A stretch of 33,749 bases of DNA. Origin: Spirochaetaceae bacterium. Lineage in GTDB: Bacteria > Spirochaetota > Spirochaetia > DSM-27196 > PWMO01. Each line of letters starts with the position of its first letter. Within the stretch, counting starts at the first letter, position 1. Where the stretch lies: the NCBI GenBank assembly GCA_007693485.1, contig REDM01000197.1:1-33749 (forward strand). Reading direction: 5' to 3'. Below the pieces are notes generated by a model that was not told the origin of the DNA, ran no database searches, and saw only the letters and a program-made list of their open reading frames with translations. The position numbers and the translations under genes were made by a program. Positions 28,760-33,749 of this stretch are shown in pieces.

Positions 28760-28786
28760 CGTGCGGCTCAGGTGCTGATCCGCACG
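28760..28786. terminator. Weak hairpin at convergent gene ends
   Basis: CGTGCGG (28760-28766) pairs with CCGCACG (28780-28786) around a 13-base loop, between the lipoprotein stop and the end of pyrI, partly within the pyrI coding region. No T run follows, so the terminator call is tentative. Confidence 0.28.
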
Positions 28787-29223
28787 TCGTCAACGAGATA
28801 GCGCTTTTCACAGTAACTGCATCGTACCCGAATGCGACCGTCACCGTGCTGCGGGCTGGTGACAAAGTGCGTTTTGATGTGTTCCAGGTTGGTCACGCAG
28901 GCGGGGTTGGGGCAGAGAATGAGCCCCGCGATGGCCTCGGGAATCGCAACGGGAATCTTCTCGGCGATTTCGTAGTCGCGGATGATCGAGATGGACGCCA
29001 TGGGTGCGATCAGCGCGATGCTGTTTGCCTCGTCGCTGGACAGCTCGTGATCTTCGATCTTGATGAGGTCCTTGCGGCCGTGTTTCCTGCTGCCGAGGTT
29101 CATGCCCACCAGCATCTGCGATCCGTGAATCTTCAGAATCTCGGCTACCTGCCACGCCTTCCCCGCCGGGATGTGGTCAATGACCGTTCCGTTGCGGATC
29201 GCGTCGACCTTGAGTTGCTTCAT
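28768..29223 (-). CDS. pyrI: Aspartate carbamoyltransferase regulatory subunit
   Basis: This subunit binds nucleotide effectors and joins catalytic trimers into the allosteric class B aspartate transcarbamoylase. It has 151 residues. The N-terminal allosteric domain starts MKQLKVDAIRNGTVIDHIPA. The zinc domain carries all four Cys ligands, in LCPNPACVTN (C104, C109) and RCSYCEKRY (C135, C138). The start codon overlaps the pyrB stop (ATGA), giving coupled synthesis. It is the last gene of the pyr operon. The presence of intact effector and zinc domains suggests CTP feedback control of the pathway. Confidence 0.96.
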   Translation of the reverse strand: MKQLKVDAIRNGTVIDHIPAGKAWQVAEILKIHGSQMLVGMNLGSRKHGRKDLIKIEDHELSSDEANSIALIAPMASISIIRDYEIAEKIPVAIPEAIAGLILCPNPACVTNLEHIKTHFVTSPQHGDGRIRVRCSYCEKRYLVDDVRIST

Positions 29224-30131
29224 TTCGTGCCCTCCGTTCCCAGCAGTTTCGCCAGAATTGCCTGTCGGACCGGCACACCGTTTGCTGCCTGCTGGAAGTA
29301 GTAGGCGTGGGTGGTCCGATCCACCGCGGTGCTGACTTCGTTGACGCGGGGGAGGGGATGGAGCACCCGCAGGGTTGGTTGTGCTCCTTCCAGCACCGCC
29401 GGCGTGATAACGTAGCTGTTCTTCACCCGCTCGTACTCTTCAGGGTCTACAAAGCGCTCACGCTGAACGCGGGTTACGTACATGATGTCGAGGTCCGGTA
29501 CAATACCGTCGAGGCTCGTGAGTTCCTGGTACGGCACCCCGGCTTCCCGGAGATCTTCCAGCAGATACGAGGGAAGGGCGAGGTGCTGCGGCGAAATGAA
29601 GAAGAAGCGCGGGCTGAACTCACTCAGGGCCTGAACCAGCGAGTGCGCGGTTCGCCCGAACTTGAGGTCTCCCACGAGCGCAATCGACAACCCGTCCAGG
29701 CGTCCCTGCGTCTTGATGATGGAGTAGAGGTCGAGCAGGGCCTGCGTGGGATGTTGATTGGCTCCATCGCCGGCGTTGATGACGGGGATGTCGACCACCT
29801 CGGAGGCGAAGCGCGCGCTTCCCTCGACCGCGCTTCGCAGGACGATGAGGTCGGCGTACATGCTGATGGTCTTGAGGGTGTCCGCGAGGCTCTCTCCCTT
29901 CTGCAGCGAGGTGCTGCTGGTGCCGCTCATCGACAAGGTCTGTCCTCCCATCCGCTTCATCGCGGTGTCGAAGGAGAAGTGCGTTCGGGTTGACGGTTCG
30001 GCGAAGAGCAGCGCGGCGAGCTTCCCGGTCAGGTCGGGCCGTACGTCGCCCTGCTCGATGCGGGCCGCAAAATCGAGAATCGATTCAATCTCAGCGCGCT
30101 TCAGATCGCGCATGGAAATCAGGTTGTTCAC
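29220..30131 (-). CDS. pyrB: Aspartate carbamoyltransferase catalytic subunit
   Basis: This enzyme condenses carbamoyl phosphate and aspartate in the committed step of pyrimidine synthesis. It has 303 residues. Carbamoyl-phosphate site: FAEPSTRTHFSFDTAMKRMG (STRT and following), KGESLADT and the HPTQALLDLY motif. The aspartate-binding part has YVTRVQRERF and LHPLPRVNEV. The start is a GTG that overlaps the preceding stop codon (GTGA), with GGAGG four bases upstream. The gene is followed directly by pyrI, so the enzyme is the class B holoenzyme. Confidence 0.97.
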   Translation of the reverse strand: MNNLISMRDLKRAEIESILDFAARIEQGDVRPDLTGKLAALLFAEPSTRTHFSFDTAMKRMGGQTLSMSGTSSTSLQKGESLADTLKTISMYADLIVLRSAVEGSARFASEVVDIPVINAGDGANQHPTQALLDLYSIIKTQGRLDGLSIALVGDLKFGRTAHSLVQALSEFSPRFFFISPQHLALPSYLLEDLREAGVPYQELTSLDGIVPDLDIMYVTRVQRERFVDPEEYERVKNSYVITPAVLEGAQPTLRVLHPLPRVNEVSTAVDRTTHAYYFQQAANGVPVRQAILAKLLGTEGTK

Positions 30132-31579
30132 CGTGCCTCCTTCGAGCCCGAGCGCACTGCGCTCCAGGCGGTCTCTCGATACCAGGCCGCCTCGGCGGCC
30201 GGATCCGCGGCGGCATAGATTCCTCTTCCCACGATGATTGCGTCGGCACCGGCCCGTACCGCGGTGGCGGGATCGAGGTAGTGCTGCCCAAGGTCGTCAC
30301 CCGCCTTCGCTCGGTGGACTCCCGGTACCATCAGCAGCTGGCCGGCGGGGATGCGATCGCGCATCGCACGAAGGTCGGCCTCGTCTTCTCCGTGGCCGAT
30401 GTAGCCGGCCACGCGATCACTGCGACGCGCCCCGGTTTCAATCACCCGCCGGGTGTACTCGTCGGTGATCAGGTTGCCCTGCGAACTCATCCGGGCAAGG
30501 AGCAGAGCTCCCTGATCGGGATGCAAGCCCTCGGAATCGCCGAAGAGGCCGTCCAGAATCGCCTCACCGGCAATCATGTGTACGGTGACCAGATCCGCCC
30601 ACTCAGCGATGCGCCCGGCCCCGCCGCGAAACTGCTTGCGCACGGTGCTGCCGATGTCGGCAAACTTTCGATCCTCAAAGAGCAGGAGGTCATGCGCGCG
30701 AGCGGTTTCGGTGAGTCGCTCAACAAAGGCGGTGGATTCTCCCCGCATGATGTCGGCGTGGGTTTTTACCATCACCAGATGGTCCGCGGTTGCCTCGAGC
30801 ACCGCAAAAAAGCGGTCCGGGTCGTCGATGTCGAGCGAGAGCACCAGGTTCGAGCGCTTGCGTGCGATGGCGGCACGGACCCGCTGCGCCGACGGCGACG
30901 CGACGGCCGGCGAGAGCGGGCCTGCGCCGGGCGGAGAGCCGACCGCAGGCGAGGCGCCGCTTCCGGATTGCAGCCCGGCGGTGAAGGTCCGAACGGCTTC
31001 GGCCTGCGCTGCGCTCAGTTTGCCGGTCTGGCTCAACTCAGCGACAATCTGGTCCAGCGTTATGGCGGCCGTGAGACCAAGGCCCAGGGCCAACAGCTCC
31101 GCGGCGGCGTTGGCACTGCGGTCAACCACCACGGCGATCTCCTGCGCCACGAGGCCCTCGGCCCGAAGCGCGTCGGCGGCCTCGCGCTTGCTTCCCCCGG
31201 TTGTCACCAGGTCGTCTACCAGGAGGCAACGACTTCCGAGGGCAATGTCACCCACAATCGTTCCGCCGGTGCCCCACGCTTTGGCCTCCTTGCGCAGCAT
31301 CACCATCGGCAGGTCAAGCAGGGTGGCAAGGTGGGTTGCAATGGGGATGGCGGTGTAGGGGATACCGACTACGGCGTCAAACGGCGGCGCGGCAGGTTTC
31401 CCCGGTCCGCGGTAGCGGTCCGCGATCAGTTCCGCCATCGCGCGGCAGAGTGCGGGTCGGGTAACCGCCGCGCGCAAGTCGAGGTAAAACGGCGACACCA
31501 GGCCGCTCCTCAGGGTGAAACTGCCGAATCGAATCGCTCCGATATCGTGCAGCGCGTGAATGAACTCTCGGGTATTCAT
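30128..31579 (-). CDS. Bifunctional orotate phosphoribosyltransferase / OMP decarboxylase (UMP synthase-like)
   Basis: One 483-residue protein carries the last two steps of UMP synthesis. The N-terminal OPRT domain (about 1-195) has FGSFTLRSGLVSPFYLDLR, VGIPYTAIPIATH and the PRPP motif LLVDDLVTTGGSK (119-131). A Pro/Ala/Ser/Gly linker lies at about 200-232. The C-terminal ODC domain (about 240-475) has VKTHADIM, the catalytic FEDRKFADIGSTV (301-313: D303, K305, D308), WADLVTVHMIAGEA, ARMSSQGNL, VPGV and the phosphate-binding VGRGIY. Both domain order and ODC sequence style (FEDRKFADIG rather than a bacterial FLDLKFHDIP-type motif) match eukaryotic UMP synthase. GGAGGA lies before the ATG. It sits 36 bases after pyrC and overlaps pyrB. 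All catalytic residues are present, so I expect both activities. Confidence 0.95.
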   Translation of the reverse strand: MNTREFIHALHDIGAIRFGSFTLRSGLVSPFYLDLRAAVTRPALCRAMAELIADRYRGPGKPAAPPFDAVVGIPYTAIPIATHLATLLDLPMVMLRKEAKAWGTGGTIVGDIALGSRCLLVDDLVTTGGSKREAADALRAEGLVAQEIAVVVDRSANAAAELLALGLGLTAAITLDQIVAELSQTGKLSAAQAEAVRTFTAGLQSGSGASPAVGSPPGAGPLSPAVASPSAQRVRAAIARKRSNLVLSLDIDDPDRFFAVLEATADHLVMVKTHADIMRGESTAFVERLTETARAHDLLLFEDRKFADIGSTVRKQFRGGAGRIAEWADLVTVHMIAGEAILDGLFGDSEGLHPDQGALLLARMSSQGNLITDEYTRRVIETGARRSDRVAGYIGHGEDEADLRAMRDRIPAGQLLMVPGVHRAKAGDDLGQHYLDPATAVRAGADAIIVGRGIYAAADPAAEAAWYRETAWSAVRSGSKEAR

Positions 31580-31615: not shown

Positions 31616-32947
31616 TTACCGGTAGTCAATAAAAACCCCTGCGGCAATGGTGGCCCGTACCGCCCCGGTAAGCTGCATCCCCGCGAAGGGTGAGTAGCGG
31701 GCCTTGGTACAAAAGCGGGACGGGTCCACCGTCCACTGGTGTGCCGGGTCAACCACCACCAGGTCGGCGCGTCTGCCCTCGGCGATGGTTCCGCGGTCGC
31801 TCAGGCCAAAGACCTCTGCGGCGCGCGACGAGGTCAGCTGCGGCAGCAGATCCAGAGGAAACACCCCGCGGTGAACGGCATCGAGCAGCAGTGCGAAGGT
31901 GGTTTCCAGCCCGGGGAAGCCCGACGGTGCGGCGTGGTATGGGCGGGCCTTCTCTTCCAGGGTGTGGGGCGCGTGGTCCGAGCCAACTGTGTCGATGACA
32001 CCGTCGCGAACGGCCTGCTGCAGCGCGCGCACATCCCGCGGCTCACGAAGCGGCGGATTCACCTTCCCGAAGTTCCCCACGCGATGCAGGATTTCATCAT
32101 CCAGAAAGAGATGATGCGGCGTCACCTCGGCAACGATGCGCGCATGCGCTTTGGCGTCACGGATGATTGCAATCTCTTCCTCGGTTGACACATGAACGAG
32201 GTAGAGGGTGCAGCCGGTTTCCGCGGCAAGCCGGCAGACCAGCCGCGTGCCCTCAACGCTGCACTCGCGTGGTCGGTGCCGTCCGTGGGCCGAAGCGTGA
32301 TCGGGGAGGGATGCGGTCTCGGCTGCATCGAGGCAGGCTTGAAGTTCCTCGTGGACGGCCACGGCCACGTCGTGGCGTGCCGCACACTGCATCACCGCGC
32401 GTACCGTCTCGGGATCGTGGACCACTTCGTTGGAGCTGGTCCCCGCGAGAAACAGCTTGATGCCAACCACATCGGCAGGCCGCCGTTGCAGCATTGCCTC
32501 GAGGTCGGCGAGGTTGTGGTCGGTGGCGCCAAGCCAGAACCGCGCATCGACGTGTCCGTTCGCGGCGCCGTTGACGGTGGTGTGGGCGGCACGTACGGCA
32601 CCACGCTTCTCATTGAGGGCGGACTGGGTCTCGGTGGGCGGGATGGTGTTGGGCATGTCGAAGATGGTGGTGAAGCCCCCACGCAGGGCGGCGGCTCCCG
32701 CGGATGCCCAGTCTTCTTTGAACGCCTGACCAAGATCCCGCACGTGGACGTGGGGATCGATTCCGCCGGGAAACACGAGCAAACCGTTGAGGTCAATCTC
32801 CCGGTCCGCGGCGAGCCGCGTCGATCCGGCAGCACCAATGGTCTCGATGCGATCGTCGCGAACTCCAATGTCTACTTCACTGTGGGCGCCGTGATTGGGT
32901 GTGCCATCCTCTAAAAGAAGGCGGGCGTTTCGCAGGATGAGGGTCAT
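31616..32947 (-). CDS. pyrC: Dihydroorotase
   Basis: This zinc amidohydrolase cyclises carbamoyl-aspartate to dihydroorotate. From ATG 32947 it has 443 residues. Metal and catalytic residues are visible: DPHVHVR (H66, H68), the likely carboxylated Lys164 in VVGIKLFLAGT, LVHVST (His252), EVTPHHLFL (H278/H279), NPPLRE and GSDHAPH with the catalytic Asp324. It is of the longer class I type, like PyrC of Bacillus, rather than the short E. coli form. GGAGGTG precedes the ATG, which overlaps the preceding pyrK stop (ATGA). The frame is open further upstream through pyrK, but that extension is only a shadow. Confidence 0.96.
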   Translation of the reverse strand: MTLILRNARLLLEDGTPNHGAHSEVDIGVRDDRIETIGAAGSTRLAADREIDLNGLLVFPGGIDPHVHVRDLGQAFKEDWASAGAAALRGGFTTIFDMPNTIPPTETQSALNEKRGAVRAAHTTVNGAANGHVDARFWLGATDHNLADLEAMLQRRPADVVGIKLFLAGTSSNEVVHDPETVRAVMQCAARHDVAVAVHEELQACLDAAETASLPDHASAHGRHRPRECSVEGTRLVCRLAAETGCTLYLVHVSTEEEIAIIRDAKAHARIVAEVTPHHLFLDDEILHRVGNFGKVNPPLREPRDVRALQQAVRDGVIDTVGSDHAPHTLEEKARPYHAAPSGFPGLETTFALLLDAVHRGVFPLDLLPQLTSSRAAEVFGLSDRGTIAEGRRADLVVVDPAHQWTVDPSRFCTKARYSPFAGMQLTGAVRATIAAGVFIDYR

Positions 32948-33749
32948 CGGGTGCACACCTCCCGGTTGGTCAACGGAACCCGTGCGCCGGTGGCGTCGCG
33001 CCGGTAGACGCCAAACTCGGACGCAGCCACCAGAACCTCGCGATTGAGTACTGGTCCCTCCACACAGACGCGGAGTCCCAGTGGATCGAGGGTGCAGCTG
33101 CCGCAGATGCCCATTCCGCATTTCATGTAGCGCTCGATGAGAAATTGCGTGGGAGTGGTCTCGCAGTGGGGAAGGAGGGCCACCAGCATCGCCTCGGGAC
33201 CCGCAGCGTAGATGCGGTCGAACGACTCGGTCTGCAACAGGCGCACCGCCTGGTCCACCGCGGTGGTACCGTCTTCGGCTTCGAGCGCGACGATCTGGCG
33301 AAGCGGCAATTCTGCGAGGCGCCGGCGGCAGAGCAGGGTCGTGGAATCGCGGGCAGCGTTCACGAAGGTCACGCTTGCCCCCCCGGCGGTGAGGGTTTCG
33401 GCGAAAAAGGTGAGCGGTGGCACCGCGCACCCGCCGCCAATCAGAAGAACACTGCCCGAGTGGGCAAAAAAAGAGGAGCCGTAGGCTCCTCGAATGGAAA
33501 ACAGATCACCGGGTCGTGCCCGAAGCAGGCGGTCACTGAACGGGCCGATGCGCCGGACGGTAACGGACACCCTGCCGTTCTCGCAGCCGCTGATCGAAAA
33601 GGGCTTGTCGTCGGTCTGCAGGTCGCTGATCATCAGAAACTGCCCGGGTAGCGCTGCGAGCTCGAGGTCGAACGTGATCGTGGCCGCGTCGCTGCTCTCC
33701 GGGTTCACCGCGGCAACCGCTACCGAATGCCGCTCAAACAGAAGCGGCT
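32944..33749 (-). CDS. pyrK: Dihydroorotate dehydrogenase electron-transfer subunit, 5' end missing
   Basis: This FAD and [2Fe-2S] protein passes electrons from dihydroorotate dehydrogenase (class 1B) to NAD. The frame stays open to the window edge (reading PLLFERHSVAVAAVNP), so the GTG at 33708 is not necessarily the start. Visible parts are LPGQFLMISD, the FAD-binding KPFSISG (Lys in place of the more usual Arg), the NAD-domain LLIGGGCAVPPLTFFAE and the iron-sulphur loop MKCGMGICGSC followed by RVCVEGPV, giving four Cys ligands. Its stop overlaps pyrC. The catalytic subunit pyrD is expected just upstream, outside the window. Confidence 0.92.
   Translation of the reverse strand, partial: PLLFERHSVAVAAVNPESSDAATITFDLELAALPGQFLMISDLQTDDKPFSISGCENGRVSVTVRRIGPFSDRLLRARPGDLFSIRGAYGSSFFAHSGSVLLIGGGCAVPPLTFFAETLTAGGASVTFVNAARDSTTLLCRRRLAELPLRQIVALEAEDGTTAVDQAVRLLQTESFDRIYAAGPEAMLVALLPHCETTPTQFLIERYMKCGMGICGSCTLDPLGLRVCVEGPVLNREVLVAASEFGVYRRDATGARVPLTNREVCTR

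Follow-up and report, generated by a model that had tools for sequence, protein, structure and literature searches.

The window analysed is a whole contig of 33,749 nucleotides from a Spirochaetaceae bacterium, and it carries a set of pyr genes in the order pyrK-pyrC-UMPS-pyrB-pyrI. All of them lie on the minus strand, with the following features.

32944..33747, minus strand: pyrK-like electron-transfer subunit of dihydroorotate dehydrogenase (Pfam DHODB_Fe-S_bind), overlapping pyrC by 4 bases
31616..32947, minus strand: pyrC, dihydroorotase of the amidohydrolase family (Pfam Amidohydro_1), 36 bases upstream of UMPS
30128..31579, minus strand: UMP synthase (UMPS), an OPRT-ODC fusion of 483 aa with an ATG start and a TGA stop
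30962..31579, minus strand: OPRT domain of UMPS, residues 1-206 (Pfam Pribosyltran at 42-157; AlphaFold; Foldseek)
30908..30961, minus strand: interdomain linker, residues 207-224, predicted to be disordered (pLDDT < 50)
30152..30898, minus strand: eukaryote-like ODC domain of UMPS, residues 228-476 (OMPdecase; Foldseek)
29220..30131, minus strand: pyrB, aspartate carbamoyltransferase catalytic chain (TIGR00670, E 1e-107), with a GTG start
28768..29223, minus strand: pyrI, aspartate carbamoyltransferase regulatory chain (TIGR00240, E 1e-47), overlapping pyrB by 4 bases

Overlaps of 4 bases occur at pyrK/pyrC, UMPS/pyrB and pyrB/pyrI. At the UMPS/pyrB junction, the four bases GTGA take in both the stop of UMPS and the GTG start of pyrB, as expected from an earlier sequence-only reading that had described the gene as integrated in a pyr operon by such an overlap. 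The 5' end of the pyrK-like gene is cut by the contig end, and genes upstream of pyrK are therefore missing from the window. Orthologues of pyrC adjoin UMPS in many related loci, and the window genome contains only one ODC gene.

The UMPS frame runs from 31579 to 30128 on the minus strand without an internal stop. Pfam, AlphaFold and Foldseek agreed in placing both domains on one chain with OPRT first, the OMPdecase match covering residues 243-465 (E 2e-43); this domain order had been read correctly from the sequence, and the segments FEDRKFADIG, WADLV, MSSQGNL, VGRGI and IPYTAIPIAT that it pointed to are all in the translation. The AlphaFold model displayed two well-folded domains joined by the disordered linker, with a mean pLDDT of 88. 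The OPRT domain contains the PRPP-binding motif LLVDDLVTTGGS and the mobile-loop segment RKEAKAWGTGG. In the ODC domain, K272, D303, K305 and D308 were invariant in the alignment of 28 bacterial fusions. These four are the catalytic residues of ODC, and with the PRPP motif of OPRT present both domains keep their catalytic residues. The conserved residues and the fold indicate that the gene probably encodes a bifunctional UMP synthase, in which the N-terminal OPRT domain would convert orotate and PRPP to OMP and the C-terminal ODC domain would decarboxylate OMP to UMP.

For both halves the closest solved structures are of eukaryotic proteins, which upholds the eukaryote-like character noticed earlier. 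The ODC half matched human UMPS ODC best (E 2e-47; Foldseek TMt 0.88, 38% identity). The OPRT half matched human OPRT 2wns (E 1.5e-36; TMt 0.86, 35% identity over the structural match) and Leishmania UMPS (E 7e-35), and enterobacterial PyrE reached only E 5e-18. Human and coffee UMPS resemble the window UMPS in domain order, both folds and catalytic residues, but the window protein lies in a separate clade for both domains and in a bacterial operon.

Fusions of the OPRT-OMPDC order are described from plants and metazoa, and OMPDC-OPRT fusions from kinetoplastids, oomycetes, diatoms and some cyanobacteria (PMC2705460, PMC9512073). As Makiuchi et al. 2007 are cited there, the two orders are independent fusions (PMC2705460, PMC9512073). 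The reverse PyrF-PyrE type (NF004034/PRK05500; Leishmania UMPS 3qw4) also has two activities on one chain, and its OPRT half is distantly related to that of the window; however, it differs in domain order and in its ODC subfamily (TIGR02127). The window UMPS scored 119.6 bits against NF004034, where the cut-off is 656, with the OPRT part alone matching, and thus falls outside that family. Unfused eukaryotic-type OPRT (NF010382/PRK13809) with an adjacent ODC gene in Chlamydiota, Dependentiae and Patescibacteria has related domains and the same gene order. These are two polypeptides whose genes often overlap and which lie in the clade with eukaryotes, whereas the window UMPS is one chain.

A scan for ODC relatives with one genome per species gave at least 492 confirmed stretches, from which the best 80 loci were kept; most of the bacterial relatives are MAGs. 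Among these best 80 of at least 492 loci, more than 50 carry a single-frame OPRT-ODC fusion, and they come from about ten bacterial phyla: Spirochaetota, Cloacimonadota, Neomarinimicrobiota, Ignavibacteriota, Calditrichota, Bacteroidota, Chlorobiota, Gemmatimonadota, Wallbacteria and one MAG labelled Gammaproteobacteria. The window UMPS is 42-60% identical over its full length to other bacterial fusions, its nearest relative excluded. In Cloacimonadota, the phylum of locus L054, 19 of 79 sampled genomes contain a full-length fusion. Within the window's own phylum, 393 genomes yielded only 5 with a strong eukaryote-like ODC, each time in a fused frame. The fusions of Cloacimonadota, Neomarinimicrobiota, Bacteroidota and others are the same fusion in the same clade and largely the same operon, and they differ from the window UMPS by sequence divergence only. 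The pyrK-C-UMPS-B-I order recurs in Cloacimonadota and others, and pyrC-UMPS-B-I in Bacteroidota and Calditrichota; this operon is conserved across several phyla. Neither NCBIfam nor the literature searched gave a name for the family. That search, with most subscription journals outside it, yielded no paper on the bacterial family and only eukaryotic and kinetoplastid UMPS fusions (e.g. PMC9512073, PMC2705460).

Eukaryotes were represented in the trees through PDB alignments, by human for both domains, coffee and yeast for ODC (the yeast sequence being identical letter for letter to PDB 3gdk), and Leishmania for OPRT. In the ODC tree, a split of 100/99 separated the bacterial fusions from human, coffee and yeast ODC together with unfused ODC of Patescibacteria, archaea, Chlamydiota, Dependentiae and some Gammaproteobacteria. 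Rooting with the ordinary PyrF of other spirochaetes was tried and rejected: the outgroup, on a branch of 4.5 changes, fell inside the window genus. This misplacement on a long branch is why the ODC tree is read unrooted. In the OPRT tree, the fused set (82/95) and the eukaryotic-type set (99/87) were joined at 100/98, apart from the OPRT of the window's own order and from enterobacterial PyrE. Divergent archaeal and Patescibacteria rows in this tree drew long-branch warnings and were left out of the AU tests. The concatenated two-domain tree separated the bacterial fusions from the eukaryotic-type set at 100/100, with the window genus nested in an 11-row spirochaete set (97/89).

A clade of the window genus with eukaryotes was rejected for ODC (p-AU 6.5e-5) and for OPRT (p-AU 0.0066). 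Neither domain therefore belongs to the eukaryotic UMPS clade, and both fall with the bacterial OPRT-ODC fusions, OPRT alone more weakly (82/95); the window also has the pyrC-UMPS-pyrB-pyrI context of that clade. The window UMPS is a member of a widespread bacterial OPRT-ODC family that is sister to eukaryotic-type OPRT and ODC. The sequence-only reading had offered a transfer between domains, to be recognised by a joint branch with eukaryotic UMPS in separate domain trees; that branch is absent for both ODC and OPRT, and the window stands in a purely bacterial fused clade. Its other proposal, an independent fusion in a bacterial lineage, holds in that the fusion is bacterial but fails in that it is not particular to this lineage, since about ten phyla share it.

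Gene order points to the origin of the fusion. In Kerfeldbacteria (L109), pyrB-I-K-C is followed by unfused, overlapping OPRT (pyrE) and ODC (pyrF) genes, and in the spirochaete locus L086 the same order is followed by the fused UMPS. The fusion of the bacterial family would thus have begun as neighbouring pyrE and pyrF genes of a pyr operon. Two further fusions are nested among unfused relatives in the clade with eukaryotes. One is a 479-aa frame in Patescibacteria G947 (L172:673-2109, minus strand), which is 72% identical to the unfused L103 and is apparently a recent separate fusion. The other is a 474-aa frame in Chlamydiota G583 (L179:686-2107, minus strand), sister to unfused Dependentiae genes. 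The surveys for Chlamydiota and for the phylum of the Verrucomicrobia MAG G434 took in nearly the same genomes. Grouping with eukaryotes was rejected for L172 (p-AU 9.6e-5) and for L172 and L179 together (p-AU 1.5e-5). Because both are nested among unfused genes and apart from eukaryotes, repeated fusion of neighbouring genes is likely. These results suggest recurrent formation of the fusion from pyrE and pyrF genes lying side by side, while gain and loss are not distinguished by the tree alone. The odds are about even that the fusion in the animal and plant order arose at least four times from such pairs, in the ancestor of the bacterial family, in eukaryotes, in L172 and in L179, and that both domains of eukaryotic UMPS have their nearest prokaryotic relatives in gene pairs of Patescibacteria, Chlamydiota, Verrucomicrobia and Coxiellaceae.

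A single ancient OPRT-ODC fusion, preceding both the bacterial and the eukaryotic clades, is a tentative and less probable account, in which the unfused genes of Chlamydiota, Dependentiae and Patescibacteria would be later splits. It agrees with the sister position of the two clades and their shared domain order, and the count of changes (5) does not separate gain from loss. However, the placement of L172 and L179 apart from eukaryotes and the close likeness of L172 to its unfused neighbour L103 speak against it, as do the unfused pairs, which are often adjacent or overlapping and are a natural source of new fusions. The fusion regarded as characteristic of animals and plants is thus common among bacteria and has probably arisen more than once, a finding relevant to the origin of eukaryotic UMP synthase.

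Other fused frames were seen in the same groups. Patescibacteria G803 contains a 903-aa frame (L176:433-3141, plus strand) that is a candidate dihydroorotate dehydrogenase-OPRT-dihydroorotase triple fusion; its OPRT part is an HMM match at 357-555, and the other two parts were recognised by eye. Frames in Patescibacteria (L178:1495-2976, minus strand) and Chlamydiota (L180:962-2485, minus strand) have a C-terminal OPRT and a putative N-terminal PyrF, the reverse fusion.

The survey of related spirochaetes proposed earlier gave a divided answer: other spirochaetes carry the fusion, but elsewhere in the window's order PyrF-PyrE is found instead, in 15 of its genomes among those examined. The two of these frames that were compared with NCBIfam matched NF004034 over the whole length, below the cut-off, and their ODC is of the TIGR02127 type. 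Most genomes of the order also have a pyrB frame of 520-590 aa, and in the window genus pyrB and pyrI are separate. Two such frames were compared with NCBIfam: that of L129 proved to be a PyrB-PyrI fusion, matching NF009916 at E 4e-225, a little below the curated cut-off, and that of L128, from the window's own family, matched more weakly. Loci L130-L151 of order relatives resemble L129, with a single frame for both the catalytic and the regulatory chain.

The window pyrB is 54-68% identical to pyrB adjoining fusions in other groups and 30-36% identical to the order's own, and the pyrB tree agrees with these values. Within the genus, its identity is 91% to G005 and 75% to both G002 and G001; to G027 it is 66%. 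G003, also of this genus, retains ODC and OPRT as separate genes together with the long pyrB frame. In G004, pyrB and pyrI of the matching type lie at a contig edge, and no UMPS was recovered there. Binning error was dismissed as the source of the window pyr genes, because three other members of the genus (G001, G002 and G004) have valS and a lipoprotein gene on either side of their pyr genes, as the window does.

The likeliest explanation for the window genus is a whole-operon transfer between bacteria. Its ancestor would have received the pyr operon from another bacterium, and this operon would have replaced the order's own pyr genes, namely the reverse PyrF-PyrE and the long PyrB-PyrI frame. 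On OPRT alone, the AU test did not reject a clade of the window genus and the OPRT native to its order (p-AU 0.28), which is taken as weak resolution near the root; the transfer therefore rests on ODC, pyrB and operon structure. We give a probability of about 0.88 to the joint reading of a bifunctional UMPS of the bacterial fusion family, derived from adjacent pyrE-pyrF genes and brought in with an operon from another bacterium.

A fusion made inside the spirochaete lineage from its own pyrE and a captured ODC is improbable: the order does have an OPRT of its own, with which the OPRT test is compatible, but both domains group with other bacterial fusions and the neighbouring pyrB indicates the same source as the fusion. 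Transfer of the gene from a eukaryote to a spirochaete, suggested by the eukaryotic best solved relatives and by the animal and plant domain order, is rejected at present sampling as very improbable indeed, because dozens of bacterial fusions stand nearer to the window UMPS (42-60% full-length identity, the nearest relative excluded, against about 38% for human ODC), an association with eukaryotes fails the AU test for ODC as well as for OPRT, and the operon context is bacterial. The supposed inter-domain transfer is thus removed, and a likely replacement of the whole operon in a spirochaete lineage takes its place. As in the window genus, valS also lies near a fused UMPS in another spirochaete (L057:4881-6542, minus strand).
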